64,000 nucleotides of DNA. It comes from Steromphala cineraria (lineage: Eukaryota; Mollusca; Gastropoda; Trochida; Trochidae). The notes below the pieces were generated by a model. It searched no databases. It was not told where the DNA came from and was given only the letters and a program-made list of their open reading frames with translations. The stretch is from contig OU744721.1 of the NCBI GenBank assembly GCA_916613615.1, positions 85,131,060 through 85,195,059 on the forward strand. Reading direction: 5' to 3'. A program made the position numbers and the translations under genes. Numbering within the stretch: the first letter of the stretch is position 1; every line of letters starts with the position of its first letter. Shown here piece after piece: positions 15,233 to 56,475 of the stretch.

Positions 15233-15241
15233 GAATTTATT
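15233..15241. repeat. Left target-site duplication of the giant element
   Basis: GAATTTATT sits immediately outside the left GGGTCTG terminus and is repeated exactly outside the right terminus. The two copies share no wider homology, as expected for a duplication made on insertion. The predicted empty site joins ...CACTTAAGAATTTATT to TATAAAATTCC.... Confidence 0.85.
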
Positions 15242-15247
15242 GGGTCT

Positions 15248-15431
15248 GTGAAGTTAGCTCCCAGTTCACGGTTCCCGGTTCATTATTCAAATTGTGAAGT
15301 TAGCTCCCAGTTCACGGTTCCTGGTTCATTATTCAAATTGTGAAGTTAGCTCCCAGTTCACGGTTCCTAGTTCCTTATTCAAATTGTGAAGTTGGTTCCC
15401 AGTTCACGGTTCCCAGTTCCTTATTCGAATA
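15248..15431 (+). repeat. 46-bp terminal tandem repeat, 4 copies
   Basis: Units begin GTGAAGTT at 15248, 15294, 15340 and 15386, so the period is exactly 46 bp. Each carries CTCCCAGTTCACGGTTCC followed by a TTATTCAAATT-like end. The last unit is altered (GGTTCCCAGTTCAC in place of AGCTCCCAGTTCAC). The units lie at the extreme tip, where transposases of related elements bind; binding here is inference. Confidence 0.9.
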
Positions 15432-15479
15432 GGAAGTAATAGCTCCCGGTTCTATGTTCAGTTATAATACCCGTTTACC

Positions 15480-15665
15480 CGTTAAACTGATATGTTTACC
15501 ATTGTCCAAGTATTAGGAATATGCCGAGTCTACTTCTGTACATGAGCAAAGGGCGCAAATGTCATGCACGGCTACCTATAGCATTTTGATTCTAATATAC
15601 ACAGTCGCAGTATCAGCCACACTATCGCTGTACCCGGTTTCTTATTCGACTCGCCCACACCCGTT
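15480..15665 (+). repeat. Divergent edge monomer of the 206-bp satellite, left
   Basis: This stretch aligns with the satellite monomer (ATTAGGAATATGCCGAGTCT against ATTAGGTCTATGTCCAGTCT, then CTTCTGTACATGAGCAAAG, and a TTCTTATTCGACTCG end) but carries private sequence such as CAGTCGCAGTATCAGCC. It is nearly identical, inverted, to 41046-41240. Divergent outermost monomers are typical of tandem arrays homogenised in their interior. Confidence 0.7.
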
Positions 15666-16089
15666 TCGTGAAAGATATGTTGAATAAGCATATATATGAT
15701 CTATGTCCAGTCTACCTCTGTACATAAGCAAAATGCAATATACGCTCGTACATTTACGTACAGGGCTATTAGATAGATGCAAGGTGCCAGCTCCCAGTTC
15801 CCAATTCAAAGTGTGAAGTTGGCACCGGGTTCATTATTCGACTCTAGACTCGCTCACACCCGTTTCAAGAAAGTTATGTTTATCATTGAATAAGCATATA
15901 TTAGGTCTATGTCCAGTCTACCTCTGTACATAATCAAAGTGCAAAGTATGCTCGTACATTTACATACAGGGCTATTAGATAGATGCAAGGTGCTAGCTCC
16001 CAGTTCGCTATTCAAAGTGTGAAGTTGGCACCGGGTTCATTATTCGACTTTAGACTCGCTCACACCCGTTCAAAATAGATAAGTTTGTC

Positions 16090-19000
16090 ATTGAATAAGC
16101 ATATATTAGGTCTATGTCAAGACTACCTCTGTACATAATCAAAGTGCAAAATATGCTCGTACATTTACGTACAGGGCTATAAGATAGATGCAAGGTGCCA
16201 GCTCCCAGTTCACTATTCAAAGTGTGAAGTTGGCACCGGGTTCATTATTCGACTCTAGACTCGCTCACACCCGTTTCAAGAAAAATTATGTTTATCATTG
16301 AATAAGCATATATTAGGTCTATGTCAAGACTACCTCTGTACATAATCAAAGTGCAAAATATGCTCGTACATTTACGTACAGGGCTATTAGATTGATGCAA
16401 GGTGCTAGCTCCCAGTTCCCTATTCAAAGTGTGAAGTTGGAACCGGGTTCATTATTCGACTTTAGACTCGCTTACACCCGTTTCAAAATAGATAAGTTTA
16501 TCATTGAATAAGCATATATTAGGTCTAGGTCAATACTACCTCTGTACATAATCAAAGTGCAAAATATGCTCGTACATTTACGTACAGGGCTATTAGATAG
16601 ATGCAATGTGCCAGCTCCCAGTTCCCTATTCAAAGTGTGAAGTTGGCACCGGGTTCATTATTCGACTCTAGACTCGCTCACACCCGTTTCAAGAAAGTTA
16701 TGTTTATCATTGAATAAGCATATATTAGGTCTATGTCCAGTCTACCTCTGTACATAAGCAAAGTGCAATGTATGCTCGTACATTTACGTACAGGTCTATT
16801 AGATAGATGCAAGGTGCTAGCTCCCAGTTCCTTATTCAAACTGTGAAGTTGGCACCGGGTTCATTATTCGACTTTAGACTCGCTTACACCCGTTTCAAAA
16901 TAGATAAGTTTATCATTGAATAAGCATATATTAGGTCTATGTCCAGTCTACCTCTGTACATAAGCAAAGTGCAATGTATGCTCGTACATTTACGTACAGG
17001 TCTATTAGATAGATGCAAGGTGCTAGCTCCCAGTTCCTTATTCAAACTGTGAAGTTGGCACCGGGTTCATTATTCGACTTTAGACTCGCTCACACCCGTT
17101 TCAAAATAGATATGTTTGTCATTGAATAAGCAAATATTAGGTCTATGTCAAGACTACCTCTGTACATAATCAAAGTGCAAAATATGCTCGTACATTTACG
17201 TACAGGGCTATTAGATAGATGCAAGGTGCTAGCTCCCAGTTCCCTATTCAAAGTGTAAAGTTGGAACCGGGTTCATTATTCGACTTTAGACTCGCTTACA
17301 CCCGTTTCAAAATAGATAAGTTTATCATTGAATAAGCATATATTAGGTCTAGGTCAATACTACCTCTGTACATAATCAAAGTGCAAAATATGCTCGTACA
17401 TTTACGTACAGGGCTATTAGATACATGCAATGTGCCAGCTCCCAGTTCCCTATTCAAAGTGTGAAGTTGGCACCGGGTTCATTATTCGACTCTAGACTCG
17501 CTCACACCCGTTTCAAGAAAGTTATGTTTATCATTGAATAAGCATATATTAGGTCAATGTCCAGTCTACCTCTGTACATAAGCAAAGTGCAATGTATGCT
17601 CGTACATTTACGTACAGGGCTATAAGATAGATGCAAGGTGCTAGCTCCCAGTTCCCTATTCAAAGTGTGAAGTTGGCACCGGGTTCATTATTCGACTTTA
17701 GACTCGCTTACACCCGTTTCAAAATAGATAAGTTTATCATTGAATAAGCATATATTAGGTCTATGTCAAGACTACCTCTGTACATAATCAAAGTGCAAAA
17801 TATGCTCGTACATTTACGTACAGGGCTATTAGATTGATGCAAGGTGCTAGCTCCCAGTTCCCTATTCAAAGTGTGAAGTTGGAACCGGGTTCATTATTCG
17901 ACTTTAGACTCGCTTACACCCGTTTCAAAATAGATAAGTTTATCATTGAATAAGCATATATTAGGTCTAGGTCAATACTACCTCTGTACATAATCAAAGT
18001 GCAAAATATGCTCGTACATTTACGTACAGGGCTATTAGATAGATGCAAGGTGCTAGCTCCCAGTTCCCTATTCAAAGTGTGAAGTTGGCACCGGGTTCAT
18101 TATTCGACTTTAGACTCGCTCACACCCGGTTTAAAATAGATATGTTTGTCATTGAATAAGCAAATATTAGGTCTATGTCAAGACTACCTCTGTACATAAT
18201 CAAAGTGCAAAATATGCTCGTACATTTACGTACAGGGCTATTAGATAGATGCAAGGTGCTAGCTCCCAGTTCCCTATTCAAAGTGTGAAGTTGGAACCGG
18301 GTTCATTATTCGACTTTAGACTCGCTTACACCCGTTTCAAAATAGATAAGTTTATCATTGAATAAGCATATATTAGGTCTAGGTCAATACTACCTCTGTA
18401 CATAATCAAAGTGCAAAATATGCTCGTACATTTACGTACAGGGCTATTAGATACATGCAATGTGCCAGTTCCCAGTTCCCTATTCAAAGTGTGAAGTTGG
18501 CAGCGGGTTCATTATTCGACTCTAGACTCGCTCACACCCGTTTCAAGAAAGTTATGTTTATCATTGAATAAGCATATATTAGGTCTATGTCCAGTCTACC
18601 TCTGTACATAAGCAAAGTGCAATGTATGCTCGTACATTTACGTACAGGGCTATTAGATAGATGCAAGGTGCCAGCTCCCAGTTCCCAATTCAAAGTGTGA
18701 AGTTGGCACCGGGTTCATTATTCGACTCTAGACTCGCTCACACCCGTTTCAAGAAAGTTATGTTTATCATTGAATAAGCATATATTAGGTCTATGTCCAG
18801 TCTACCTCTGTACATAATCAAAGTGCAAAGTATGCTCGTACATTTACATACAGGGCTATTAGATAGATGCAAGGTGCTAGCTCCCAGTTCGCTATTCAAA
18901 GTGTGAAGTTGGCACCGGGTTCATTATTCGACTTTAGACTCGCTCACACCCGTTTCAAAATAGATAAGTTTGTCATTGAATAAGCATATATTAGGTCTAT

Positions 19001-20620
19001 GTCAAGACTACCTCTGTACATAATCAAAGTGCAAAATATGCTCGTACATTTACGTACAGGGCTATAAGATAGATGCAAGGTGCCAGCTCCCAGTTCACTA
19101 TTCAAAGTGTGAAGTTGGCACCGGGTTCATTATTCGACTCTAGACTCGCTCACACCCGTTTCAAAATAGATAAGTTTATCATTGAATAAGCATATATTAG
19201 GTCTAGGTCAATACTACCTCTGTACATAATCAAAGTGCAAAATATGCTCGTACATTTACGTACAGGGCTATTAGATAGATGCAAGTTGCCAGCTCCCAGT
19301 TCCCTATTCAAAGTGTGAAGTTGGCGGCGGGTTCATTATTCGACTTTAGACTCGCTTACACCCGTTTCAAAATAGATAAGTTTATCATTGAATAAGCATA
19401 TATTAGGTCTATGTCCAGTCTACCTCTGTACATAAGCAAAGTGCAATGTATGCTCGTACATTTACGTACAGGTCTATTAGATAGATGCAAGGTGCTAGCT
19501 CCCAGTTCCTTATTCAAACTGTGAAGTTGGCACCGGGTTCATTATTCGACTTTAGACTCGCTTACACCCGTTTCAAAATAGATAAGTTTATCATTGAATA
19601 AGCATATATTAGGTCTATGTCCAGTCTACCTCTGTACATAAGCAAAGTGCAATGTATGCTCGTACATTTACGTACAGGTCTATTAGATAGATGCAAGGTG
19701 CTAGCTCCCAGTTCCTTATTCAAACTGTGAAGTTGGCACCGGGTTCATTATTCGACTTTAGACTCGCTCACACCCGTTTCAAAATAGATATGTTTGTCAT
19801 TGAATAAGCAAATATTAGGTCTATGTCAAGACTACCTCTGTACATAATCAAAGTGCAAAATATGCTCGTACATTTACGTACAGGGCTATTAGATAGATGC
19901 AAGGTGCTAGCTCCCAGTTCCCTATTCAAAGTGTAAAGTTGGAACCGGGTTCATTATTCGACTTTAGACTCGCTTACACCCGTTTCAAAATAGATAAGTT
20001 TATCATTGAATAAGCATATATTAGGTCTAGGTCAATACTACCTCTGTACATAATCAAAGTGCAAAATATGCTCGTACATTTACGTACAGGGCTATTAGAT
20101 ACATGCAATGTGCCAGCTCCCAGTTCCCTATTCAAAGTGTGAAGTTGGCACCGGGTTCATTATTCGACTCTAGACTCGCTCACACCCGTTTCAAGAAAGT
20201 TATGTTTATCATTGAATAAGCATATATTAGGTCAATGTCCAGTCTACCTCTGTACATAAGCAAAGTGCAATGTATGCTCGTACATTTACGTACAGGGCTA
20301 TAAGATAGATGCAAGGTGCTAGCTCCCAGTTCCCTATTCAAAGTGTGAAGTTGGCACCGGGTTCATTATTCGACTTTAGACTCGCTTACACCCGTTTCAA
20401 AATAGATAAGTTTATCATTGAATAAGCATATATTAGGTCTATGTCAAGACTACCTCTGTACATAATCAAAGTGCAAAATATGCTCGTACATTTACGTACA
20501 GGGCTATTAGATTGATGCAAGGTGCTAGCTCCCAGTTCCCTATTCAAAGTGTGAAGTTGGAACCGGGTTCATTATTCGACTTTAGACTCGCTTACACCCG
20601 TTTCAAAATAGATAAGTTTA
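16090..20620 (+). repeat. Higher-order repeat block, copy 1 (4,533 bp, 22 monomers)
   Basis: All variant markers I followed in this block reappear exactly 4,533 bp later, including an AAGAAAAATTATG monomer at about 16280/20813 and a CGGTTTAAAATAG monomer at about 18126/22659. The block is itself a 13-monomer plus a 9-monomer subunit. Boundaries are approximate because only sparse variants define them. Confidence 0.75.
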
Positions 20621-23600
20621 TCATTGAATAAGCATATATTAGGTCTATGTCAAGACTACCTCTGTACATAATCAAAGTGCAAAATATGCTCGTACATTTA
20701 CGTACAGGGCTATAAGATAGATGCAAGGTGCCAGCTCCCAGTTCACTATTCAAAGTGTGAAGTTGGCACCGGGTTCATTATTCGACTCTAGACTCGCTCA
20801 CACCCGTTTCAAGAAAAATTATGTTTATCATTGAATAAGCATATATTAGGTCTATGTCAAGACTACCTCTGTACATAATCAAAGTGCAAAATATGCTCGT
20901 ACATTTACGTACAGGGCTATTAGATTGATGCAAGGTGCTAGCTCCCAGTTCCCTATTCAAAGTGTGAAGTTGGAACCGGGTTCATTATTCGACTTTAGAC
21001 TCGCTTACACCCGTTTCAAAATAGATAAGTTTATCATTGAATAAGCATATATTAGGTCTAGGTCAATACTACCTCTGTACATAATCAAAGTGCAAAATAT
21101 GCTCGTACATTTACGTACAGGGCTATTAGATAGATGCAATGTGCCAGCTCCCAGTTCCCTATTCAAAGTGTGAAGTTGGCACCGGGTTCATTATTCGACT
21201 CTAGACTCGCTCACACCCGTTTCAAGAAAGTTATGTTTATCATTGAATAAGCATATATTAGGTCTATGTCCAGTCTACCTCTGTACATAAGCAAAGTGCA
21301 ATGTATGCTCGTACATTTACGTACAGGTCTATTAGATAGATGCAAGGTGCTAGCTCCCAGTTCCTTATTCAAACTGTGAAGTTGGCACCGGGTTCATTAT
21401 TCGACTTTAGACTCGCTTACACCCGTTTCAAAATAGATAAGTTTATCATTGAATAAGCATATATTAGGTCTATGTCCAGTCTACCTCTGTACATAAGCAA
21501 AGTGCAATGTATGCTCGTACATTTACGTACAGGTCTATTAGATAGATGCAAGGTGCTAGCTCCCAGTTCCTTATTCAAACTGTGAAGTTGGCACCGGGTT
21601 CATTATTCGACTTTAGACTCGCTCACACCCGTTTCAAAATAGATATGTTTGTCATTGAATAAGCAAATATTAGGTCTATGTCAAGACTACCTCTGTACAT
21701 AATCAAAGTGCAAAATATGCTCGTACATTTACGTACAGGGCTATTAGATAGATGCAAGGTGCTAGCTCCCAGTTCCCTATTCAAAGTGTAAAGTTGGAAC
21801 CGGGTTCATTATTCGACTTTAGACTCGCTTACACCCGTTTCAAAATAGATAAGTTTATCATTGAATAAGCATATATTAGGTCTAGGTCAATACTACCTCT
21901 GTACATAATCAAAGTGCAAAATATGCTCGTACATTTACGTACAGGGCTATTAGATACATGCAATGTGCCAGCTCCCAGTTCCCTATTCAAAGTGTGAAGT
22001 TGGCACCGGGTTCATTATTCGACTCTAGACTCGCTCACACCCGTTTCAAGAAAGTTATGTTTATCATTGAATAAGCATATATTAGGTCAATGTCCAGTCT
22101 ACCTCTGTACATAAGCAAAGTGCAATGTATGCTCGTACATTTACGTACAGGGCTATAAGATAGATGCAAGGTGCTAGCTCCCAGTTCCCTATTCAAAGTG
22201 TGAAGTTGGCACCGGGTTCATTATTCGACTTTAGACTCGCTTACACCCGTTTCAAAATAGATAAGTTTATCATTGAATAAGCATATATTAGGTCTATGTC
22301 AAGACTACCTCTGTACATAATCAAAGTGCAAAATATGCTCGTACATTTACGTACAGGGCTATTAGATTGATGCAAGGTGCTAGCTCCCAGTTCCCTATTC
22401 AAAGTGTGAAGTTGGAACCGGGTTCATTATTCGACTTTAGACTCGCTTACACCCGTTTCAAAATAGATAAGTTTATCATTGAATAAGCATATATTAGGTC
22501 TAGGTCAATACTACCTCTGTACATAATCAAAGTGCAAAATATGCTCGTACATTTACGTACAGGGCTATTAGATAGATGCAAGGTGCTAGCTCCCAGTTCC
22601 CTATTCAAAGTGTGAAGTTGGCACCGGGTTCATTATTCGACTTTAGACTCGCTCACACCCGGTTTAAAATAGATATGTTTGTCATTGAATAAGCAAATAT
22701 TAGGTCTATGTCAAGACTACCTCTGTACATAATCAAAGTGCAAAATATGCTCGTACATTTACGTACAGGGCTATTAGATAGATGCAAGGTGCTAGCTCCC
22801 AGTTCCCTATTCAAAGTGTGAAGTTGGAACCGGGTTCATTATTCGACTTTAGACTCGCTTACACCCGTTTCAAAATAGATAAGTTTATCATTGAATAAGC
22901 ATATATTAGGTCTAGGTCAATACTACCTCTGTACATAATCAAAGTGCAAAATATGCTCGTACATTTACGTACAGGGCTATTAGATACATGCAATGTGCCA
23001 GTTCCCAGTTCCCTATTCAAAGTGTGAAGTTGGCAGCGGGTTCATTATTCGACTCTAGACTCGCTCACACCCGTTTCAAGAAAGTTATGTTTATCATTGA
23101 ATAAGCATATATTAGGTCTATGTCCAGTCTACCTCTGTACATAAGCAAAGTGCAATGTATGCTCGTACATTTACGTACAGGGCTATTAGATAGATGCAAG
23201 GTGCCAGCTCCCAGTTCCCAATTCAAAGTGTGAAGTTGGCACCGGGTTCATTATTCGACTCTAGACTCGCTCACACCCGTTTCAAGAAAGTTATGTTTAT
23301 CATTGAATAAGCATATATTAGGTCTATGTCCAGTCTACCTCTGTACATAATCAAAGTGCAAAGTATGCTCGTACATTTACATACAGGGCTATTAGATAGA
23401 TGCAAGGTGCTAGCTCCCAGTTCGCTATTCAAAGTGTGAAGTTGGCACCGGGTTCATTATTCGACTTTAGACTCGCTCACACCCGTTTCAAAATAGATAA
23501 GTTTGTCATTGAATAAGCATATATTAGGTCTATGTCAAGACTACCTCTGTACATAATCAAAGTGCAAAATATGCTCGTACATTTACGTACAGGGCTATAA

Positions 23601-25153
23601 GATAGATGCAAGGTGCCAGCTCCCAGTTCACTATTCAAAGTGTGAAGTTGGCACCGGGTTCATTATTCGACTCTAGACTCGCTCACACCCGTTTCAAAAT
23701 AGATAAGTTTATCATTGAATAAGCATATATTAGGTCTAGGTCAATACTACCTCTGTACATAATCAAAGTGCAAAATATGCTCGTACATTTACGTACAGGG
23801 CTATTAGATAGATGCAAGTTGCCAGCTCCCAGTTCCCTATTCAAAGTGTGAAGTTGGCGGCGGGTTCATTATTCGACTTTAGACTCGCTTACACCCGTTT
23901 CAAAATAGATAAGTTTATCATTGAATAAGCATATATTAGGTCTATGTCCAGTCTACCTCTGTACATAAGCAAAGTGCAATGTATGCTCGTACATTTACGT
24001 ACAGGTCTATTAGATAGATGCAAGGTGCTAGCTCCCAGTTCCTTATTCAAACTGTGAAGTTGGCACCGGGTTCATTATTCGACTTTAGACTCGCTTACAC
24101 CCGTTTCAAAATAGATAAGTTTATCATTGAATAAGCATATATTAGGTCTATGTCCAGTCTACCTCTGTACATAAGCAAAGTGCAATGTATGCTCGTACAT
24201 TTACGTACAGGTCTATTAGATAGATGCAAGGTGCTAGCTCCCAGTTCCTTATTCAAACTGTGAAGTTGGCACCGGGTTCATTATTCGACTTTAGACTCGC
24301 TCACACCCGTTTCAAAATAGATATGTTTGTCATTGAATAAGCAAATATTAGGTCTATGTCAAGACTACCTCTGTACATAATCAAAGTGCAAAATATGCTC
24401 GTACATTTACGTACAGGGCTATTAGATAGATGCAAGGTGCTAGCTCCCAGTTCCCTATTCAAAGTGTAAAGTTGGAACCGGGTTCATTATTCGACTTTAG
24501 ACTCGCTTACACCCGTTTCAAAATAGATAAGTTTATCATTGAATAAGCATATATTAGGTCTAGGTCAATACTACCTCTGTACATAATCAAAGTGCAAAAT
24601 ATGCTCGTACATTTACGTACAGGGCTATTAGATACATGCAATGTGCCAGCTCCCAGTTCCCTATTCAAAGTGTGAAGTTGGCACCGGGTTCATTATTCGA
24701 CTCTAGACTCGCTCACACCCGTTTCAAGAAAGTTATGTTTATCATTGAATAAGCATATATTAGGTCAATGTCCAGTCTACCTCTGTACATAAGCAAAGTG
24801 CAATGTATGCTCGTACATTTACGTACAGGGCTATAAGATAGATGCAAGGTGCTAGCTCCCAGTTCCCTATTCAAAGTGTGAAGTTGGCACCGGGTTCATT
24901 ATTCGACTTTAGACTCGCTTACACCCGTTTCAAAATAGATAAGTTTATCATTGAATAAGCATATATTAGGTCTATGTCAAGACTACCTCTGTACATAATC
25001 AAAGTGCAAAATATGCTCGTACATTTACGTACAGGGCTATTAGATTGATGCAAGGTGCTAGCTCCCAGTTCCCTATTCAAAGTGTGAAGTTGGAACCGGG
25101 TTCATTATTCGACTTTAGACTCGCTTACACCCGTTTCAAAATAGATAAGTTTA
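20621..25153 (+). repeat. Higher-order repeat block, copy 2 (4,533 bp, 22 monomers)
   Basis: Register at offset 4,533 holds through this block and then breaks near 25170, after which the sequence follows the 2,678-bp (13-monomer) register of the previous block instead. The switch in register suggests a crossover or conversion junction within the array. Confidence 0.7.
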
Positions 25154-26975
25154 TCATTGAATAAGCATATATTAGGTCTAGGTCAATACTACCTCTGTAC
25201 ATAATCAAAGTGCAAAATATGCTCGTACATTTACGTACAGGGCTATTAGATAGATGCAAGGTGCTAGCTCCCAGTTCCCTATTCAAAGTGTGAAGTTGGC
25301 ACCGGGTTCATTATTCGACTTTAGACTCGCTCACACCCGTTTCAAAATAGATATGTTTGTCATTGAATAAGCAAATATTAGGTCTATGTCAAGACTACCT
25401 CTGTACATAATCAAAGTGCAAAATATGCTCGTACATTTACGTACAGGGCTATTAGATAGATGCAAGGTGCTAGCTCCCAGTTCCCTATTCAAAGTGTGAA
25501 GTTGGAACCGGGTTCATTATTCGACTTTAGACTCGCTTACACCCGTTTCAAAATAGATAAGTTTATCATTGAATAAGCATATATTAGGTCTAGGTCAATA
25601 CTACCTCTGTACATAATCAAAGTGCAAAATATGCTCGTACATTTACGTACAGGGCTATTAGATACATGCAATGTGCCAGTTCCCAGTTCCCTATTCAAAG
25701 TGTGAAGTTGGCAGCGGGTTCATTATTCGACTCTAGACTCGCTCACACCCGTTTCAAGAAAGTTATGTTTATCATTGAATAAGCATATATTAGGTCTATG
25801 TCCAGTCTACCTCTGTACATAAGCAAAGTGCAATGTATGCTCGTACATTTACGTACAGGGCTATTAGATAGATGCAAGGTGCCAGCTCCCAGTTCCCAAT
25901 TCAAAGTGTGAAGTTGGCACCGGGTTCATTATTCGACTCTAGACTCGCTCACACCCGTTTCAAGAAAGTTATGTTTATCATTGAATAAGCATATATTAGG
26001 TCTATGTCCAGTCTACCTCTGTACATAATCAAAGTGCAAAGTATGCTCGTACATTTACATACAGGGCTATTAGATAGATGCAAGGTGCTAGCTCCCAGTT
26101 CGCTATTCAAAGTGTGAAGTTGGCACCGGGTTCATTATTCGACTTTAGACTCGCTCACACCCGTTTCAAAATAGATAAGTTTGTCATTGAATAAGCATAT
26201 ATTAGGTCTATGTCAAGACTACCTCTGTACATAATCAAAGTGCAAAATATGCTCGTACATTTACGTACAGGGCTATAAGATAGATGCAAGGTGCCAGCTC
26301 CCAGTTCACTATTCAAAGTGTGAAGTTGGCACCGGGTTCATTATTCGACTCTAGACTCGCTCACACCCGTTTCAAAATAGATAAGTTTATCATTGAATAA
26401 GCATATATTAGGTCTAGGTCAATACTACCTCTGTACATAATCAAAGTGCAAAATATGCTCGTACATTTACGTACAGGGCTATTAGATACATGCAATGTGC
26501 CAGCTCCCAGTTCCCTATTCAAAGTGTGAAGTTGGCAGCGGGTTCATTATTCGACTCTAGACTCGCTCACACCCGTTTCAAGAAAGTTATGTTTATCATT
26601 GAATAAGCATATATTAGGTCTATGTCAAGACTACCTCTGTACATAAGCAAAGTGCAATGTATGCTCGTACATTTACGTACAGGTCTATTAGATAGATGCA
26701 AGTTGCTAGCTCCCAGTTCCTTATTCAAACTGTGAAGTTGGCACCGGGTTCATTATTCGACTTTAGACTCGCTTACACCCGTTTCAAAATAGATAAGTTT
26801 ATCATTGAATAAGCATATATTAGGTCTATGTCAAGACTACCTCTGTACATAATCAAAGTGCAAAATATGCTCGTACATTTACGTACAGGGCTATTAGATA
26901 GATGCAAGGTGCTAGCTCCCAGTTCCCTATTCAAAGTGTGACGTTGGCACCGGGTTCCTTATTCGACTTTAGTCT

Positions 26976-31300: not shown

Positions 31301-32159
31301 ACTGCGTCATGCAGTTTGAAGAAACAAATCATGAAGAAGCTGATACATTGATGATCTGCTTGGCAGCAGCAGCATCACAACGGTATCCTGGAGCACTCAT
31401 GGTTTTCTTCAGCCTATATACAGACGTCTTAGTTTTAGCTGTTGCACACTGTGAGAAGCTCTCCAAAAACACAGCAATATCGATGGTCTCAGGTATTGTC
31501 GAGATTGGACCAATCTGGAGTGCGCTTGGAAGAGAAAAGCAACAGCATTACATGTTTCCCATGCCTTTTCTGGTGCAGATAATGTTGGAAGATTATCTGG
31601 ACTTGGTAAAACTAAGTGGTTCCAGAAGTACAAGAAGGCTGACGTGGAAGTCATCTCAGCATCTATGGAACTGACAGAGGAATGTGATGTACAACAGGAC
31701 GTGAAGGAGACACTGGCTAAATTTGTTTGCTCACTGTACTGTCGAAAGGACATTCATATAGCAAGTATTCCTGACCTCAGGTGGCATCTGTTTTGTAAAT
31801 ATCTGGCGGAAAGCAACAAGTTGCCACCTACAACTGGTGCCCTTGAGGAGCATATTGAACGTGCTCCTGACAAGCTAGGGTGTGGTCTCAAAGCACAGTG
31901 ATGTGGCAGCATCTGTTGGATCCCCTCAAACATGGCTATTAACAAATTGGAAATGGTGATGTACTCCCTACCACCGCAAAGGTGCTACCCCCGCCACAAG
32001 CCATTGTAGAACTGGTCAGATGCCAATGCAAAACCCATTGCACAAGCCAAAGGTGTTCATGTCAGAGTCACAACTTGCCTTGCATCGAGCTCTGTTTGTG
32101 AAAATGATTCTGACTACAACGCCGAATATGACACCCAGGACAGTGATGAAGATCTGTAG
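28358..32159 (+). pseudogene. Broken large gene of a multicopy invertebrate family: PIN/FEN1-like acidic motifs and Cys-rich tail
   Basis: This is a single coding remnant of about 3.8 kb split over all three plus frames by at least eight stops or frameshifts (stop near 28573, frame changes near 28700, 28880, 29610, 29970, 30570, 30960 and 32095). In order: an N-terminal segment at 28358-28573; FFAVDNTDFAEDTADG near 28894 followed by GTTHGTITVVYQ; an Asp/Arg-rich middle including ALDRIKYQRLWPRYLADMQE near 30025 and GADHACEQVNRMMKIHSG near 30165; NHEEADTLMI at 31327-31356 and TDVLVLAV at 31420-31443, acidic motifs like those of PIN/FEN1-type nucleases; and a Cys-rich stretch at 32021-32094 (CxCx3CxSxRCSC...LPC...LC) before an acidic end and stop at 32157. 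I recall similar long uncharacterised proteins as multicopy in corals and molluscs; exact function is unknown. It could be the element's own recombination protein or captured cargo. Confidence 0.75.
32016..32100 (+). other. Cysteine-rich (CXC-like) motif near the end of the broken core gene
   Basis: In one frame this reads VRCQCKTHC, then RCSC, LPC and ELC, with regularly spaced cysteines recalling the tesmin/TSO1 CXC motif, a zinc- and DNA-binding module. A frameshift just after it separates the motif from the acidic terminus ENDSDYNAEYDTQDSDEDL. The family comparison is from memory and unverified. Confidence 0.55.
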
Positions 32160-32339
32160 TAACACTTTCTAAATGATATAGATCTTGAAGATACTCCGGC
32201 AGGATTTGCCTGTTATCTTTCTTTTGAGATTCATATGAACACTACATTGATTGCATTCCCGCACTACATTGATTGATTGCATGTAATATGTTATGGAATA
32301 ATAAGTACATAAAGATAATAATGTCATATACCATTTTTT

Positions 32340-32670
32340 CTTATTTTAAATGCTTCTGATCATGTTTGTGTTGTCACCATTACAGTCCTAGACCACAAAA
32401 ACATAGAATTATCATTTTTATTCTAGGTTCTAAGTTGACAAGAAACTGAGATATTGCAAAATTGGATGGCGGCCATTTTGAAATAAAAAAATAGTCACAT
32501 AAATCCCTTTTCTCTACTTTTTAATGCCTCTGATCATATTTATGCTATCACCGTCAGCATCCTTGACCACAAAAACATGGAGTTACAATGTTTATTTTAG
32601 TTTCTAAGTTGTCAAGAAGCCAATTTATAGCAGAATTTGTGATTTATGGCGGCCATTTTGAAAATCATAA
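32340..32670 (+). repeat. Two-copy ~180-bp repeat downstream of the core gene
   Basis: The pair shares TGCTTCTGATCATGTTTGTG / TGCCTCTGATCATATTTATG, GACCACAAAAACAT(A/G)GA and a common end GGCGGCCATTTTGAAA. It is a possible 3' region of the broken gene or an independent repeat. Confidence 0.7.
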
Positions 32671-32749
32671 CGGTGTAAACGAAAATGCCAACATTGTTTT
32701 TTTTTTATTTTCTGTGCTTTCATCTTTCCAAAAATGTATAGTTTAAGAT

Positions 32750-33080
32750 TTAAAACCTATTTTCATCTGTTTCTCCAGGAACCTAATGCCTAAATAGCTG
32801 AAAGCTTGTGTAGATACTCCTTGACTAGTGAGGCTTTATATTTTATAGCTTTGCTGGCCCTATGGCCCCTAATAAGGGCCACAGGGGCCATACCCTTAAA
32901 ACATATTTTCATCTTCTTCTCCAGAAACATGTGACCTTAATAGCTGAAACTTTGTTTAAAGAGTCTTTGACTAGAAAGGATTATGAGGGCCAAAAGGGCC
33001 ATGCCTTTAAAAGTTTTTTTCACTTGCGAAAGGTCTAGAGAGCTGAAATCTTGGCGTACAGACTCCTGCAATTAACCCTT
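32750..33080 (+). repeat. Degenerate GGCC-type tandem repeat, right of the core gene
   Basis: Units carry TTTTCATCTTCTTCTCCAG, GAAAGCTTG or GCTGAAACTTTG, ACTCCTTGACTAGTGAGG and CCCTATGGCCCCTAATAAGG. Related units recur at 35370-35800, and a weaker one lies near 28080-28140, so the core gene is bracketed by the same repeat family. Confidence 0.65.
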
Positions 33081-33639
33081 TGGTCACTTAAACAGGTTTG
33101 GTGAACATTTGGATTCTGTACCTTAAATTATCAATTGAATTATCAATATTCGTTTCTGTATTGATTACAGTTATCTGAAATCACATGTATAATTATTTCT
33201 AGGATTTGTGACCCTGTTGTCCTTACAAAGGGCGAAACCACATTGGCCACACCCTGCAGTAATATCAAATATGAAGCCTGATAAACTATAGAACCAATCG
33301 CTCTGGCCTTATCTCCAAAACCTTTCATTATTTTCTTACAAAACTTTATAATATGTGGTTCATCCTTATGGTGGTGTGGTGCATTTTTTATTTGTAATTT
33401 TTTATCTAATGACATTGAACCTACATGTACATGTAACTCAGTGTTAGGAGTAGGTCACATAAACACTCAAGTTGATGACATGACCACAAAAGGACAATAA
33501 ATGCACGTTTTTTACGAGAAAAATGATTTTAATCAGTGAAATTTCCTAAATGTACATAAAAATACCCGTATGGTCTTGGGGTATTTTTTTGGGCATCAGT
33601 TACATCATGTTGACAACAAGAACATGCCGCAATTAACTT
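33081..33639. other. Element core between GGCC repeat and Tc1 remnant
   Basis: AT-rich sequence with no coding signal; a 90-codon minus-strand frame at 33143-33415 shows no recognisable domain. A GGGGTATT just left of the Tc1 remnant and a CACCCCTA right of it (about 34345) could be eroded Tc1 ends, but the match is weak. Confidence 0.4.
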
Positions 33640-34284
33640 CAAAGCAGAGAGGGTGAGCAAAGTGGATGCTTCAACTTGGCGCTACAAACGACCATGTCGC
33701 TAGAATCTTGAACTGCTCGAAGCAAACAATTGGTAGGCTGTTGATGCATTTTGGACAGACTGGCAGGACAATAAACAGGCCCAGGAGCTACAGACCAGAG
33801 GTGACCACCCCCATTGTAGACATACATTTACGGGTGCTTCCCCTGAGGAACATTTTCCTGACTGTGACGTCATCAGCTGCACACAGCCTGAATCATCGAA
33901 TCAGCAGATGGACAGTGACCAGACGACTGCGTTAACACGACATTTGAGCAAATCGACCTCTCAAAGCAATGAAGTTAAAGCATCAAATTTGACGTCGAAT
34001 ACTGGCTTTAGGGAGTACTGTTCGTCAATGTTGTGAATGTCTTGGTCTAGCCAGCAAGATCTCCGGATATGTATCCAGTAGAGCATCTTTGAGGCTACCT
34101 CAGGCGACGTATTCGACAACGCCAACAGCCTCCACTGAGAGTGCAGGACTTGAGTCGTGTTTTGCAGGGGAAATGGCACCATATCCATAGTCGTGTTAGT
34201 AGGCGATTTATGAACCATGTCCGCGGTCGTGTTGCGTTTCTTGTTGCATCACAAGGAGGCCACAGCCGATATTATGACGTTTAA
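33640..34284 (+). pseudogene. Tc1/mariner-like transposase, internally deleted
   Basis: The N-terminal half (33666-33935) is a paired helix-turn-helix typical of Tc1-like transposases: MLQLGATNDHVARILNCSKQ, then GRTINRPRSYRPEVTTP and LPLRNIFLTVTSSAA, then RRPL-like KAMKLKH just after a stop. The C-terminal end resumes at about 34047 with ARSPDMYPVEHL, the region carrying the last catalytic acidic residue, followed by RRRIRQRQQPPLRVQDLSR and a GGHSRY-type end at 34284. The central part with the first two catalytic aspartates is missing, and in-frame stops occur. The full family protein is about 340 residues, so this copy is dead. It is nested inside the core of the giant element, so it inserted there or was carried in. 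Confidence 0.85.
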
Positions 34285-35369
34285 GTAACTGAAGCAGTGT
34301 GATTTGTGTTTTGACATGTGATCGAATACCGGACAATACACCCCTAGTCAACTAATCATCTTGTAAAACGGTAAAAAAATGTCTTTATGTTTCACGAATT
34401 CTTGCAATTTGATAAATATACAACAAGTTTATAATAATAAATGTCAGAATATACAAGTAATAAATAAGGGGTATAGCAATTATAAGATTGAATCCCCCTA
34501 AGGAATCCAGAATTCGAAACAGTAAGACCTGTATTTAATTAAACTCAGCATATTACCCCATTAAGATTTTTAGGACATGATAACCTGTGCTGTATATCAA
34601 ATTTTGAGAAGTACCAAAAACAGGTTGCAATTGGCCATGGTCATGGTGACAAAGTCAACAGAAGTAGGGTATTGCATTAAAAGAACTATTAGCACTTTTT
34701 ATCTTTCATGATTCTAATAATAAACGAAAAGTGGTCATGGATTATTTAACCTTGAATATTAGGTCAAGGTCACTTAGGTATGGGTTATTGCTTCTCTACC
34801 CCCATATTAATCAAATTTTGAAAGTTTCAAACTCATTCAACTTGATTGTTCGTAACGCAGCCTGGGAATAGTAATGTTTAAAATACCCCTGGGAATTTGT
34901 TTGACCTGTTGACAATTGATGTCAAAGTTCAAGGTCATGACTTCTGAAATTCTATTATAATATGTTTAAAAAAAAAGAAAATGTAGTGTTATCTTTTTCT
35001 TTAGTTTTGCCTGACATTTTTGTTGTTGTTTTTTTTGTATTGCTTACCGCGGTTTTGAAAAAAAGTTGTACTGTCTTGCATCAACAGTTGTTAATTGCAG
35101 CATCAAAATTATATTATAACTATTTCAAATACCAAGTGATCATTTCGTAGCCTGTGTTGATATTTAACTAACAACAAATAATGTTAATTTTTTATATGAT
35201 GTACATGTATATGGAATTTTACATTTACGGCAATTCTGAATAAAATAATTGCAAGAAAATATATAATGTTTATATTATCCTTTCAAGATCGATATGTATT
35301 TCATATCCATAATATTTCAAATGGGATCATAAGTTGACTGAACACAAAAACGTTGGTACTGAAATGTTG
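34285..35369. other. Element core, right noncoding part
   Basis: No gene is seen. The stretch includes several AAGGTCA words (GGTCAAGGTCAC near 34762, TTCAAGGTCATGAC near 34929), common in invertebrate repeats and matching nuclear-receptor half-sites by sequence only. The 62-codon frame at 34962-35150 starts in a poly(A)-like tract and looks incidental. Confidence 0.5.
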
Positions 35370-35800
35370 GTGGCCCTGTGACCCTGTGGCCCCTAATAAG
35401 GGTCACAGGGGCCACACCTTAAAACTTTTCATCCTCATCTCCAGAAACATAAGGCCTAGAAAGCTGAAACTGTTTGTACAGACTCCTTGACTAGTGAGGA
35501 TTATTATTTATGGCTCTTTGGGCCTTATTTTCATGTTCTTCTCCTGAAGCATAAGGCATAGAAAGCTGATACCATGTGTTCAGACTCCTTGACACGTGAG
35601 GATTATAATTTATAGCTTTGATGGTCCTTTTGCCCCATAAAAGGGCCAAGCCCTTTAACTAATTTTAATGTTCTTCTCCAGAAGTAAAAGGCCTTAAAGC
35701 TGAAATGTTGTTCTAACTCGTTTTATTGAGGATTATAATTGAAAATTTTGATGACCATATGGTCCCTAACAGGGCCTTGTGAACCTATGGATCCTATACT
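35370..35800 (+). repeat. Degenerate GGCC-type tandem repeat next to the right arm
   Basis: There are three diverged units with CCTGTGGCCCCTAATAAGGG, TCTCCAGAAACATAAGGCC, AAGCTGAAAC and GACTCCTTGAC(T/A)(A/C)GTGAGG. It is the same family as 32750-33080, in the same orientation. Confidence 0.65.
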
Positions 35801-35880
35801 ATAAATTATCGATTGGATATTTTAGCAATTTCACCTTTTTATTTAAAGAGGTAGAGCTAATGTATTGTATTTTCTTTTTT

Positions 35881-38800
35881 CTTTCTTGAAACGGGTGTGA
35901 GCGAGTGTAAAGTCGAATATTGAACCCGGTGCCAACTTCACACTTTGAATAGGGAACTGGGAGCTGGCACCTTGCATCTATCTAATAGCCCTGTACGTAA
36001 ATGTACGAGCATACTTTGCACTTTGCTTATGTACAGAGGTAGACTGGACATAGACCTAATATATGCTTATTCAATGATAAACATAACTTTCTTGAAACGG
36101 GTGTGAGCGAGTCTAGAGTCGAATAATGAACCCGGTGCCAACTGCACACTTTGAATAGGGAACTGGGAGCTAGCACCTTGCATCTATCTAATAGCCCTGT
36201 ACGTAAATGTACGAGCACATTTTTCACTTTGCTTATGTACAGAGGTAGACTGGACATAGACCTAATATATGCTTATTCAATGATAAACATAACTTTCTTG
36301 AAACGGGTGTGAGCGAGTCTAAAGTCGAATAATGAACCCGGTGCCAACTGCACACTTTGAATAGGGAACTGGGAGCTAGCACCTTGCATCTATCTAATAG
36401 CCCTGTACGTAAATGTACGAGCACATTTTTCACTTTGCTTATGTAAAGAGGTAGACTGGACATAGACCTAATATATGCTTATTCAATGATAAACATAACT
36501 TTCTTGAAACGGGTGTGAGCGACTCTAGAGTCGAATAATGAACCCGGTGCCAACTTCACACTTTGAATAGGAAACTGGGAGCTTGCACATTGCATCTATC
36601 TAATAGCCCTGTACGAAAATGTACGAGCATATTTTGCACTTTGATTATGTACAGAGGTAGTCTTGACATAGACCTAATATATGTTTATTCAATGATAAAC
36701 TTATCTATTTTGAAACGGGTGTTATCGACTCTCTAGTCGAAAAATGAACCCGGTACCAACTTCACACTTTGAATAGAGAACTAGGAGCTAGCACCCTTGC
36801 ATCTATCTAATAGCCCTGTACGTAAATGTACGAGCATACATTGCACTTTGCTTATGTACAGAGGTAGACTGGACATAGACCTAATATATGCTTATTCAAT
36901 GATAAACATATTTTTCTTGAAACGGGTGTGAGTGAGTCTAGAGTCGAATAATGATCCCGGTGCCAACTTCACACTTTGAATAGTGAACTGGGAGCTGGCA
37001 CCTTGCATCTATCTAATAGCCCTGTACGTAAATGTACGAGCATATTTTGCACTTAGATTATGTACAGAGGTAGTCTTGACATATACCTAATATATGCTTA
37101 TTCAATGATAAACTTATCTATTTCGAAACGGGTGTTATCGACTCTCTAGTCGAATAATGAACCCGGTGCCAACTTCACACTTTGAATAGAGAACTAGGAG
37201 CTAGCACCTTGCATCTATCTAATAGCCCTGTACGTAAACGTACGAGCATATTTTGCACTTTGCTTCCTTCAGAGGTAGACTGGACATAGACCTAATATAT
37301 GCTTATTCAATGATAAACTTATCTATTTTGAAACGGGTGTGAGCGAGTCTAAAGTTGAATAATGAACCCGGTTCCAACTTCACACTTTGAATAGGGAACT
37401 GGGAGCTGGCACCTTGCATCTATCTAATAGCCCTGTACGTAAATGTACGAGCGTACATTGCACTTTGCTTATGTACAGAGGTAGACTGGACAAAGACCTA
37501 ATATATGCTTATTCAATGATAAACATATTTTTCTTGAAACGGGTGTGAGCGAGTCTAGAGTCGAATAATGAACCCGGTGCCAACTTCACACTTTGAATAG
37601 TGAACCTGGAGCTGGTACCTTGCATCTATCTAATAGCCCTGTACGTAAATGTACGAGCACATTTTTCACTTTGCTTATGTACAGAGGTAGACTGGACATA
37701 GACCTAATATATGCTTATTCAATGATAAACATAACTTTCTTGAAACGGGTGTGAGCGAGCCTAGAGTCGAATAATCAACCCGGTGCCAACTTCACACTTT
37801 GAATAGGGAACTGGGAGCTGGCACCTTGCATCTATCTAATAGCCCTGTACGTAAATGTACGAGCATATTTTGCACTTTGATTATGTACAGAGGTAGTCTT
37901 GACATAGACCTAATATATGTTCATTCAATGATAAACGTATCTATTTTGAAACGGGTGTAAGCGAGTCTAAAGTCGAATAATGAAATCTGTGCCAACTTCA
38001 CACTTTGAATAGGGAACTGGGAGCTAGCACCTTGCATCTATCTAATAGCCCTGTACGTAAATGTACGAGCATATTTTGCACTTTGATTATGTACAGAGGT
38101 AGTCTTGACATATACCTAATATATGCTTATTCAATGATAAACTTATCTATTTCGAAACGGGTGTTATGGACTCTCTAGTCGAATAATGAACCCGGTGCCA
38201 ACTTCACACTTTGAATAGAGAACTAGGAGCTAGCACCTTGCATCTATCTAATAGCCCTGTACGTAAATGTACGAGCATATTTTGCACTTTGCTTCCTTCA
38301 GAGGTAGACTGGACATAGACCTAATATATGCTTATTCAATGATAAACATAATTTTCTTGAAACGGGTGTGAGCGAGTCTAGAGTCGAATAATGAACCCGG
38401 TGCCAACTTCACACTTTGAATAGTGAACTGGGAGCTGGCACCTTGCATCTATCTAATAGCCCTGTACGTAAATGTACGAGCACATTTTTCACTTTGCTTA
38501 TGTACAGAGGTAGACTGGACATAGACCTAATATATGCTTATTCAATGATAAACATAATTTTCTTGAAACGGGTGTGAGCGAGTCTAGAGTTGAATAATGA
38601 ACCCGGTTCCAACTTCACACTTTGAATAGGGAACTGGGAGCTGGCACCTTGCATCTATCTAATAGCCTTGTACGTAAATGTACGAGCAAATTTTGCACTT
38701 TGATTATGTACAGAGGTAGTCTTGACATAGACCTAATATATGCTTATTCAATGATAAACTTATTTATTTTGAAACGGGTGTCATCGACTCTAAAGTCGAA

Positions 38801-41045
38801 TAATGAACCCGATGCCACCTTCACACCTTGAATAGGGAACTAGGAGCTAGCACCTTGCATCTATCTAATAGCCCTGTACGTAAATGTACGAGCACATTTT
38901 GCACTTTGCTTATGTACAGAGGTAGACTGGACATAGACCTAATATAGGCTTATTCAATGATAAACATAACTTTCTTGAAACGGGTGTGAGCGAGTCCAGA
39001 GTTGAATAATGAACCCGGTGCCAACTTCACACTTTGAATAGGGAACTGGGAGCTGGCACATTGCATCTATCTAATAGCCCTGTACGTAAATGTACGAGCA
39101 TATTTTGCACTTTGATTATGTACAGAGGTAGTATTGACATAGACCTAATATATGCTGATTCAATGATAAACTTATCTATTTTGAAACGGGTGTAAGCGAG
39201 TCTAAAGTCGAATAATGAACCTGGTTCCAACTTCACACTTTGAATAGGGAACTGGGAGCTAGCACCTTGCATCTATCTAATAGCCCTGTACGTAAATGTA
39301 CGAGCATATTTTGCACTTTGCTTCTGTACAGAGGTAGACTGGACATAGACCTAATATATGCTGATTCAATGATAAATATAATTTTCTTGAAACGGGTGTG
39401 AGCGAGTCTAGAGTCGAATAATGAACCCGGTGCCAACTTCACACTTTGAATAGGGAACTGGGAGCTGGCACCTTGCATCTATCTAATAGCCCTGTACGTA
39501 AATGTACGAGCGTACATTGCACTTTGCTTATGTACAGAGGTAGACTGGACATAGACCTAATATATGCTTATTCAATGATAAACATAACTTTCTTGAAACG
39601 GGTGTGAGCGAGTCTAGAGTCGAATAATGAACCCGGTGCCAACTTCACACTTTGAATAGTGAACTGGGAGCTGGCACCTTGCATCTATCTAATAGCCCTG
39701 TACGTAAATGTACGAGCACATTTTGCACTTTGATTATGTACAGAGGTAGACTGGACATAGACCTAATATATGCTTATTCAATGATTAACATAATTTTCTT
39801 GAAACGGGTGTGAGCGAGTCTAGAGTCGGATAATGAACCCGGTGCCAACTTCACACTTTGAATAGTGAACTGGGAGCTGGCACCTTGCATCTATCTAATA
39901 GCCCTGTACGTAAATGTACGAGCACATTTTGCACTTTGCTTATCTACAGAGGTAGACTGGACATAGACCTAATATATGCTTATTCAATGATTAACATCAT
40001 TTTCTTGAAACTGGTGTGAGCGAGTCTAGAGTCGAATAATGAACCCGGTTCCAACTTCACACTTTGAATAGGGAACTGGGAGCTAGCACCTTGCATCTAT
40101 CTAATAGCCCTATACGTAAATGTACGAGCGTATTTTGCACTTTGCTAATGTACAGAGGTAGACTGGACATATACCTTATATATGCTTATTCAATGATAAA
40201 CTTATCTATTTTGAAACGGGTGTGAGCGAGTCTAAAGATGAATAATGAACCCGGTGCCAACTTCACACTTTGAATAGTGAACTGGGAGCTAGCACCTTGC
40301 ATCTATCTAATAGCCCTGTACGTAAATGTACGAGCATACAATGCACTTTGCTTATGTACAGAGGTAGACTGGACATAGACCTAATATAGGCTTATTCAAT
40401 GATGAACATAACTTTCTTGGAATGGGTGTGAGCGAGTCTAGAGTCGAATAATGAACCCAGTGCCAACTTCACACTTTGAATTGGGAACTGGGAGCTGGCA
40501 CCTTGCATCTATCTAATAGCCCTGTAAGTAATGTACGAGCGTACATTGCACTTTGCTTATGTACAGAGGTAGACTGGACATAGACCTAATATATGCTTAT
40601 TCAATGATAAACATAATTTTCTTGGAAAGGGTGTGAGCGAGTCTAAAGTTGAATAATGAACCCGGTTCCAACTTCACACTTTGAATAGGGAACTGGGTGC
40701 TAGCACCTTGCATTTATCTAATAGCCCTGTACGTAAATGTACGAGCATATTTTGCACTTTGCTTATGTACAGAGGTAAACTTGACATAGACCTAGTATAG
40801 GCTTATTCAAAGATAAACATAACTTTCTTGAAACGGATGTGAGCGAGTCTGGAGTCGAATAATGAACCCGGTGCCAACTTCACACTTTGAATAGGGAACT
40901 GGGAGCTGGCACCTTGCATCTATCTAATAGCCCTGTACGTAAATGTACGAGCGTATATTGCATTTTGCTTATTTACAGACGTAGACTGGACATAGATCAT
41001 ATATATGCTTATTCAACATATCTTTCACGAAACGGGTGTGGGCGA
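35881..41045 (-). repeat. 206-bp satellite array, about 25 monomers, inverted
   Basis: The anchor AACTTCACAC recurs from 35934 to 40876, 24 intervals averaging 205.9 bp. Monomers vary more than in the left array. One subtype with GTGTTATCGACTCTCTAG appears near 36721 and 37134, and a GTGTTATGGACTC variant near 38163. I found no long higher-order period comparable to the left arm. Minus-strand open frames of about 76-81 codons recur because of the repeat; 206 is not a multiple of three, so they are not a repeated protein. Confidence 0.95.
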
Positions 41046-41240
41046 ATCGAATAAGAAACCGGGTACAGCGATAGTGTGGCTGATACTGCGACTGTGTATA
41101 TTAGAATCAAAATGCTATAGGTAGCCGTGCATAACATTTGCGCCCTTTGCTCATGTACAGAAGTAGACTCGGCATATTCCTAATACTTGGACAATGGTAA
41201 ACATATCAGTTTAACGGGTAAACGGGTATTATAACTGAAC
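41046..41240 (-). repeat. Divergent edge monomer of the 206-bp satellite, right
   Basis: This is the reverse-complement partner of 15480-15665, including the private GGCTGATACTGCGACTG segment. Its close match to the left edge shows that the two arms share ancestry across non-satellite sequence and not only across the satellite. Confidence 0.7.
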
Positions 41241-41279
41241 ATAGAACCGGGAGCTATTACTTCCTATTCGAATAAGGAA

Positions 41280-41540
41280 CTGGGAACCGTGAACTGGGAA
41301 CCAACTTCACAATTTGAATAAGGAACTAGGAACCGTGAACTGGGAGCTAACTTCACAATTTGAATAATGAACCAGGAACCGTGAACTGGGAGCCAACTTC
41401 ACAATTTGAATAATGAACCAGGAACCGTGAACTGGGAGCCAACTTCACAATTTGAATAATGAACCAGGAACCGTGAACTGGGAGCCAACTTCACAATTTG
41501 AATAATGAACCGGGAACCGTGAACTGGGAGCTAACTTCAC
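41280..41540 (-). repeat. 46-bp terminal tandem repeat, 6 copies
   Basis: AACTTCAC anchors occur at 41303, 41349, 41395, 41441, 41487 and 41533, again spaced exactly 46 bp. These are the reverse complement of the left-tip units, with two more copies than on the left. Three middle copies read GAGCCAACTTC where the outer ones read GAGCTAACTTC, so copy number has probably changed locally since insertion. Confidence 0.9.
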
Positions 41541-41546
41541 AGACCC

Positions 41547-41555
41547 GAATTTATT
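41547..41555. repeat. Right target-site duplication of the giant element
   Basis: An exact GAATTTATT copy directly follows the right terminus CAGACCC. It matches the left copy at all nine positions. In AT-rich DNA a chance match exactly at both arm boundaries is unlikely, though less so than in balanced sequence. Confidence 0.85.
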
Positions 41556-44957: not shown

Positions 44958-44987
<30 letters not shown>

Positions 44988-44998
44988 CTTCTTCTTCT
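44958..44998 (+). repeat. CTT microsatellite, LINE tail
   Basis: About 13.7 uninterrupted CTT units immediately follow the LINE 3' sequence. Some non-LTR families end in short tandem tails in place of poly(A); the tail marks the 3' boundary of the insertion. Confidence 0.9.

Positions 44999-54615: not shown

Positions 54616-56475
<1,860 letters not shown>

Follow-up and report, generated by a model that had tools for sequence, protein, structure and literature searches.

Foldback-type elements of Steromphala cineraria with inverted ends built of long satellite arrays and flanked by 9-bp target duplications

A 64,000-nt stretch of the Steromphala cineraria genome (C2:85131060-85195059, here called the window; the genome has 1.27 Gb in 281 contigs) contains two large satellite arrays in inverted orientation, which raises the question of whether they are the ends of one transposable element. 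The initial annotation had described a Foldback-like inserted element with perfect termini, a perfect 9-bp duplication, arms of 11.7 and 5.7 kb, and a core of 8.9 kb, and all of these features were recovered when the window was re-measured. By exact string search and alignment, the element proper of this window copy, W, extends from 15242 to 41546 and is enclosed by the 9-bp target duplication GAATTTATT, which matches the plus strand of the window at three positions (15233, 41547, and 42678). The terminus GGGTCTGTGAAGTT is unique in the window at 15242 and its complement is unique at 41533. The left arm (WL) measures 11,731 bp and the right arm (WR) 5,666 bp, around a core of 8,908 bp (Table 1). 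Both arms follow the same plan, in which outer 46-bp units ending in GGGTCTGTGAAGTT are followed by a short non-tandem segment and then by an array of 206-bp units. According to Tandem Repeats Finder, the 46-bp units occupy 15247-15452 in the left arm and 41259-41541 in the right, and the 206-bp units form 54.8 copies at 15680-26972 and 24.9 copies at 35881-41016. When aligned, the outer ends (about 440 bp) show three substitutions and unequal numbers of 46-bp units, and the left and right inner tip segments show two differences across the 245 bp compared.

The exact 14-base terminus was found at 113 places in the genome, compared with 14 for a reversed control pattern. Pairing of forward and reverse neighbours at most 70 kb apart, among 100 listed of the 113 places, resulted in 33 pairs; both flanks were read for all of them and the duplications were counted by script. 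Perfect 9-bp duplications were present in 26 of the 33 pairs, W included, and one further pair agreed at eight of nine positions. The 26 duplications are all different and show no strong consensus. Among the mismatched combinations of left and right flanks, only one of 1,056 agreed (C32:21.06 with C32:21.23, which have a common right flank). We conclude that this is a genuine insertion family and that chance is excluded genome-wide. The other loci with the tip beside a 9-bp duplication, for which the initial annotation had suggested searching, do therefore exist; the empty-site relative that it also suggested was not recovered, as CACTTAAGAATTTATT joined to TATAAAATTCC had no paralogue in the genome search and matched only the two flanks of W themselves.

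The pairs span from 102 bp to 65.7 kb. Perfect duplications flank short copies of 330, 540, and 741 bp, and the 102-bp copy is the one with eight of nine positions. As one inverted end (the right) of the 330-bp copy is only about 20 bp long, even a very short end is probably enough. The largest pair (C37) also has a perfect duplication. A 2-kb slice from its middle gave 20 further full-length matches at 96-98% identity, with 40 of 6,128 candidates scored, and because this slice repeats so often elsewhere, the 65.7-kb copy has probably been swollen by a nested repeat. A region sampled inside this copy (L096, C37:48665500-48671499) has no long frames and is part of a large high-copy repeat.

Ten copies were read whole, namely W and those numbered E1, E2, E3, E5, E6, E7, E9, E10, and E11. 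Two-tier tandem arms are present in all ten, the elements being 7.1-29.8 kb in size with 8-62 extracted 206-bp units per arm, and the 206-bp arrays make up 32-90% of the element. The longest arm (E1 right) is 13.4 kb, and arms reach about 63 units of 206 bp. A central segment was found in nine copies, whereas in the 7.1-kb E3, which has a perfect 9-bp duplication, the arms meet directly. Long, variable, and internally tandem inverted ends, together with copies with and without a centre, are the structural marks of Foldback elements. The FB elements of Drosophila with NOF similarly combine foldback ends, internal tandem repeats, a 9-bp duplication, and both cored and coreless copies, but their repeats and arms are much smaller. 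According to the 206-bp unit, the copies fall into two subfamilies, about 92-96% alike within and about 80% between: subfamily A (W, E1, E3, E5, E6, E7, and E11) and subfamily B (E2, E9, and E10).

To learn whether the arrays themselves had moved, W could be compared with a sister copy, E5 (C2:68.06 Mb), which lies at a different site with a different duplication, AAATCAATC. The two cores, in inverted orientation, are 99.7% identical across 6.4 kb and 98.9% across 2.5 kb. Between WR and the left arm of E5 (E5L), 23 of 24 units could be aligned in order, 21 of them at 99% identity or more; the score of 8.43 was reached by none of 60 unit shuffles, the best of which scored -0.75. Similarly, 32 units of WL were aligned with the right arm of E5 (E5R), 20 of them at 99% or more, and again none of 60 shuffles reached the score. 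The crossed arm pairs scored far lower (-14.55 for WL-E5L and -6.28 for WR-E5R). Collinear arms at different sites with different duplications imply that the arrays already existed when at least one of the moves took place. Judged from these alignments, which concern one sister pair, arrays of about 20 or more units predate at least one of the two insertions, and the long satellite arms travelled as arms and did not merely grow once inserted.

The 206-bp unit itself appears to descend from the transposon end. Aligned with the 46-bp tip, it scored 37 over 42 columns; none of 500 shuffles scored above 33, and its reverse complement scored 16. The end motif TGTGAAGTTRGC, with at most one mismatch, occurs only in forward orientation in the left arm and only in reverse orientation in the right arm in 10 of 10 copies. 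In W it was counted 55 times in the left arm (54 206-bp and four 46-bp units) and 31 times in the right (24 and six), so that nearly every unit carries an inward-pointing degenerate transposon end, roughly one per unit. A transposase would recognise the 14-20-bp tip, and the inward motifs of the 46-bp and 206-bp units could offer it extra binding sites. This suggestion is made by analogy with Galileo and Tetris repeats: in the Tetris paper, extra transposase sites are described for Galileo repeats and the same is suggested for Tetris (PMC4079207).

Our preferred reading, to which we give a probability of roughly 0.72, is a multicopy family of foldback DNA transposons with long satellite-array inverted ends and 9-bp duplications, whose mobility likely depends in trans on a transposase of Mutator/Rehavkus type with its gene elsewhere in the genome. 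The family is thus most likely non-autonomous. A Mutator-type mover is favoured because of the 9-bp duplication and the G-rich tip. The target duplications of Mutator-like elements (MULEs) and Rehavkus are 8-11 bp, mostly 9, a range that includes the perfect 9 bp of the 26 pairs, and satellite or minisatellite sequence in the inverted termini, as in Rehavkus, is present here as well. MULE domains are abundant in the genome, with at least 144 PF10551 matches (150 of 276 candidates scored), and this abundance, together with the likeness to published foldback families, supports such a mover. Lengths of 9 bp and 9-11 bp are tabulated for these groups (PMC6446971), and published foldback families with similar duplications have been placed in the Mutator group or compared to it (PMC3169594, PMC4079207, PMC6446971).

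Several observations weigh against this reading. An autonomous partner was not found in five kinds of search. When the 144 listed MULE matches and the 100 listed terminus places were compared by eye, no match came within 200 kb of a terminus, and a tip DNA similarity search (40 of 200 candidates scored) listed mostly known copy ends plus five further places. Convincing duplications are missing from six of the 33 pairs (C35:43.31, 43.65, 43.76, 56, and 58; C32:21.23), whole reads are limited to ten copies, and 65.7 kb is probably not the size that the largest copy had when it moved. In addition, the crossed arm pairs of W and E5 also beat all 60 shuffles, albeit by small margins. The search for the mover gave negative results elsewhere, too. 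The nine open reading frames (ORFs) of the window that were scanned against Pfam contained no MULE-type transposase and gave no PHD hit, and no transposase for these ends was recognised at the 20 unpaired tips read. Nor was a transposase recognised in the ORF lists, examined with no family search, of three neighbourhoods behind tips without 46-bp repeats, or in the ORF lists alone of the cores sampled at C40:57.2 (10 kb), C32:22.78 (8 kb), C37:48.6 (6 kb), and C4:29.3 (4.5 kb).

The core gene offers a different origin for the mobility. It may have been the family's own former transposase, a double nuclease with RNase-H-like and FEN-like parts that is dead in the copies read and represents an undescribed class, although we consider this unlikely. 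The core of W is common to five other fully read copies, the longer matches being about 92-99.7% identical, and homologues of its gene match DUF6589 weakly and, intact relatives among them, are predicted to contain a nuclease domain of FEN/XRN type. In every one of the six cores compared, the gene is 5'-truncated and broken, one break being common to all six, and it was therefore rejected as the current mover. The impression of a new-looking core gene did not hold either, as the gene is a relic, and a protein database search with one open piece of it yielded 170 homologues at E <= 0.01. No relatives of the core gene were confirmed in viral and genome contig collections, a 726-bp core piece had no match among plasmids, and the 29-base tip had none among viral contigs. 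In a fuller version of this idea, which we hold to be at least as doubtful, the founder would have belonged to an undescribed transposase class fusing an RNase-H-like to a FEN/EXO1-like flap nuclease, and the satellite arms would have evolved as multi-site binding platforms that kept the family mobile after the death of the gene. A second relic in the core has a longer ORF in E11 and, on our own reading, looks Tc1-like.

A distant relative of the core-gene homologues was observed in another type of transposon, 7.2 kb long and present in two copies that are 98.9% identical (L071:373-7588 and L072, at C32:10.13 Mb and C38:19.18 Mb). Its uninterrupted 1,560-aa frame is distantly related (28%) to the protein family of the core gene, with its weak DUF6589 match and predicted FEN-like domain. 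The element is apparently autonomous, may represent an undescribed superfamily, and has the ends GTCTGGGAGCCA with an apparent TA duplication, in contrast to the 9-bp duplication and GGGTCTGTGAAGTT ends of W. As a possible lead, the end GTCTGGGAGCCA and the tip of the W family have GTCTG in common, and this end also has CTGGGAGCCAA in common with the 46-bp unit, there in the opposite orientation.

It is also conceivable, if quite improbable, that only small tip-only insertions moved and that the satellite arms were added later by local amplification. In line with this, the sister arms are unequal (24 units in WR but 58 in E5L; 54 in WL but 32 in E5R), many units are identical within one arm only, and short copies of 0.1-0.7 kb occur. 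The collinearity of WR and E5L at different sites, and the 20 nearly identical units shared by WL and E5R, on the other hand, speak against it. The arms have nevertheless changed length independently of one another since then, and E5 contains repeated blocks of about nine units. Of the 54 units extracted from WL, 50 recur without change elsewhere in that arm, and within-arm identity is common generally. These block duplications suggest that each arm would have lengthened separately, by unequal exchange or slippage. Only in E7 was a unit of one arm (one unit) matched exactly in the opposite arm of that element, and E7 and E11 were the only copies whose unit order, compared between arms, exceeded every one of the 60 shuffles; for the remaining copies, the score was reached by 1 (E5), 2 (E3), 4 (W), 10 (E2), 31 (E6), 39 (E9), 49 (E10), and 55 (E1) of the 60 shuffles. 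Mutual homogenisation of both arms was therefore rejected as a rule.

A Galileo-like foldback of the P superfamily is less probable still. The target duplication of Galileo is 7 bp, and the 9 bp observed in 26 of 33 pairs disfavours that superfamily, which was rejected in spite of the long, internally repetitive inverted ends that Galileo is described as having (PMC3573991, PMC4168063). An assembly artefact or a segmental duplication of inverted satellite blocks is hardly credible: inverted tandem arrays are hard to assemble and six tips at C4:73-76 Mb with one outer flank look like a duplicated locus, but an assembly join cannot yield different duplications at 26 separate places and is thereby refuted for the family, and the joined flanks of W matched nowhere else. 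The six C4 tips (C4:73204587-76211621, L076-L081) belong to subfamily B and lie on one strand over about 3 Mb. As they have an identical 20-bp outer flank, they seem to derive from a single insertion multiplied together with its surroundings.

Having weighed these alternatives, we compared the foldback family with known systems. No published description of it was recognised in the literature, Repbase and Dfam being outside this search. Helentrons, to our knowledge, lack inverted satellite arms and a 9-bp duplication. In oysters, they exemplify a mobile element that spreads satellite-like arrays (PMC7492417). Close in design is Rehavkus-1_TC of Tribolium castaneum, which has satellite in its inverted termini and, for its group, a 9-bp duplication. 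There, TCsat23 with a 164-bp unit forms short arrays, mostly of 5 and 8 units, in a 9.5-kb element (PMC10218199), whereas in the present family the arms extend up to 13.4 kb and the searches recovered no transposase. The Rehavkus group is an outgroup or relative of MULEs with 9-bp duplications, inverted ends of 26-400 bp, and a PHD-finger transposase (PMC6446971, PMC10218199). Because a Rehavkus/MULE transposase between the present ends is not established, we do not file the family as Rehavkus.

Tetris of Drosophila virilis likewise has an outer domain followed by tandem units, a stretch common to both, and no transposase found. Its units are about 220 bp, its duplications 8-10 bp, and its inverted ends at most 1,735 bp, with allelic change in unit number; only three structurally complete copies are reported, and larger arrays, its authors suggest, could have interfered with transposition (PMC4079207). 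In the present family, by contrast, perfect duplications flank 26 copies, and the element carried arrays of about 20 or more units with it when it moved. Tm1 of Meloidogyne (Mutator/Foldback, Phantom subclass) is similar in its composite repetitive inverted ends and 9-bp duplications. It has ends of variable length, copies from MITE-like (miniature inverted-repeat) to larger ones, and a unit of about 14 bp, was judged inactive, and encodes in one class a 496-aa putative transposase (PMC3169594); the tips of the present family, in comparison, are alike from 102 bp to tens of kb. In surveys, MULE inverted ends measure 14-500 bp (PMC6446971) or 13-1,193 bp (PMC13359780), and a review notes a set of Pack-MULEs of which no member was longer than 7 kb (PMC6431247). 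The satellite-armed foldback design is thus already known from Tetris and Rehavkus, and what is new is the arm length and the evidence of whole-array movement. The earlier suggestion of a possibly undescribed family needs the correction that its architecture already exists in smaller form in Rehavkus-1_TC and Tetris.

Table 1. Features of the W element, with positions in the window
Feature	Position	Strand	Remarks
Left target-site duplication GAATTTATT	15233..15241	.	same as 41547-41555
Left tip: terminus GGGTCTGTGAAGTT and ~4.5 tandem 46-bp units	15242..15452	+	
Left inner tip segment, non-tandem, with near-identical right counterpart	15453..15679	+	alignment
Left 206-bp satellite array, ~55 units	15680..26972	+	Tandem Repeats Finder and unit extraction
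Core, 8.9 kb	26973..35880	.	common to five other fully read copies
Broken 5'-truncated gene relic	28136..32156	+	matches residues 256-1611 of 1,611-aa homologue P0121
Relic with weak helix-turn-helix matches	33657..34290 (end approximate)	+	no match above curated cut-off
Right 206-bp satellite array, inverted, ~25 units	35881..41016	-	
Right tip: inner segment, ~6 46-bp units (41259-41541), terminus AACTTCACAGACCC	41017..41546	-	
Right target-site duplication GAATTTATT	41547..41555	.	

Some individual copies and surroundings deserve mention. The right flank of W contains a pure GA microsatellite (56364-56473, 55 copies) and a CTT repeat (44958-44998, 13.7 copies). In E7 (C3:56.15 Mb), an insertion at element positions 20858-25596 splits the right-arm array in two; its 1,155-aa frame we take, on our own reading rather than a family search, to be that of a retrotransposon without long terminal repeats (non-LTR). 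The core of a 25.5-kb subfamily B copy (L069, C40:57207000-57216999) holds frames of 916 and 621 aa, presumably, on the same footing, of a DIRS-type or other retroelement. Three pairs of 4.2-4.4 kb without clear duplication lie within 0.45 Mb (C35:43.31, 43.65, and 43.76 Mb; L051-L056) in similar AT-rich flanks and possibly belong, as units, to a larger local repeat. At C32:19501742-19521480 (L037, L038), a copy with the duplication GAGAGTTAC interrupts an apparent coding exon (MDSTEELYSNLR...), so that a gene is possibly interrupted in the sequenced individual.

It has often been suggested that transposons seed satellite DNA, as a rule starting from a few repeat units. In this family, judging from the single pair of sister copies open to comparison, a ready-made satellite array was delivered to a new place. 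If the founder-nuclease idea were true, the family would be a machine for planting such arrays across the genome. Such elements could escape repeat maskers in which the arms are classed as simple satellite. With 26 scarred insertions, ordered sister copies, and a size series starting at 102 bp, array growth and exchange between arms become measurable in this family, as does, directly, the size limit of cut-and-paste movement.

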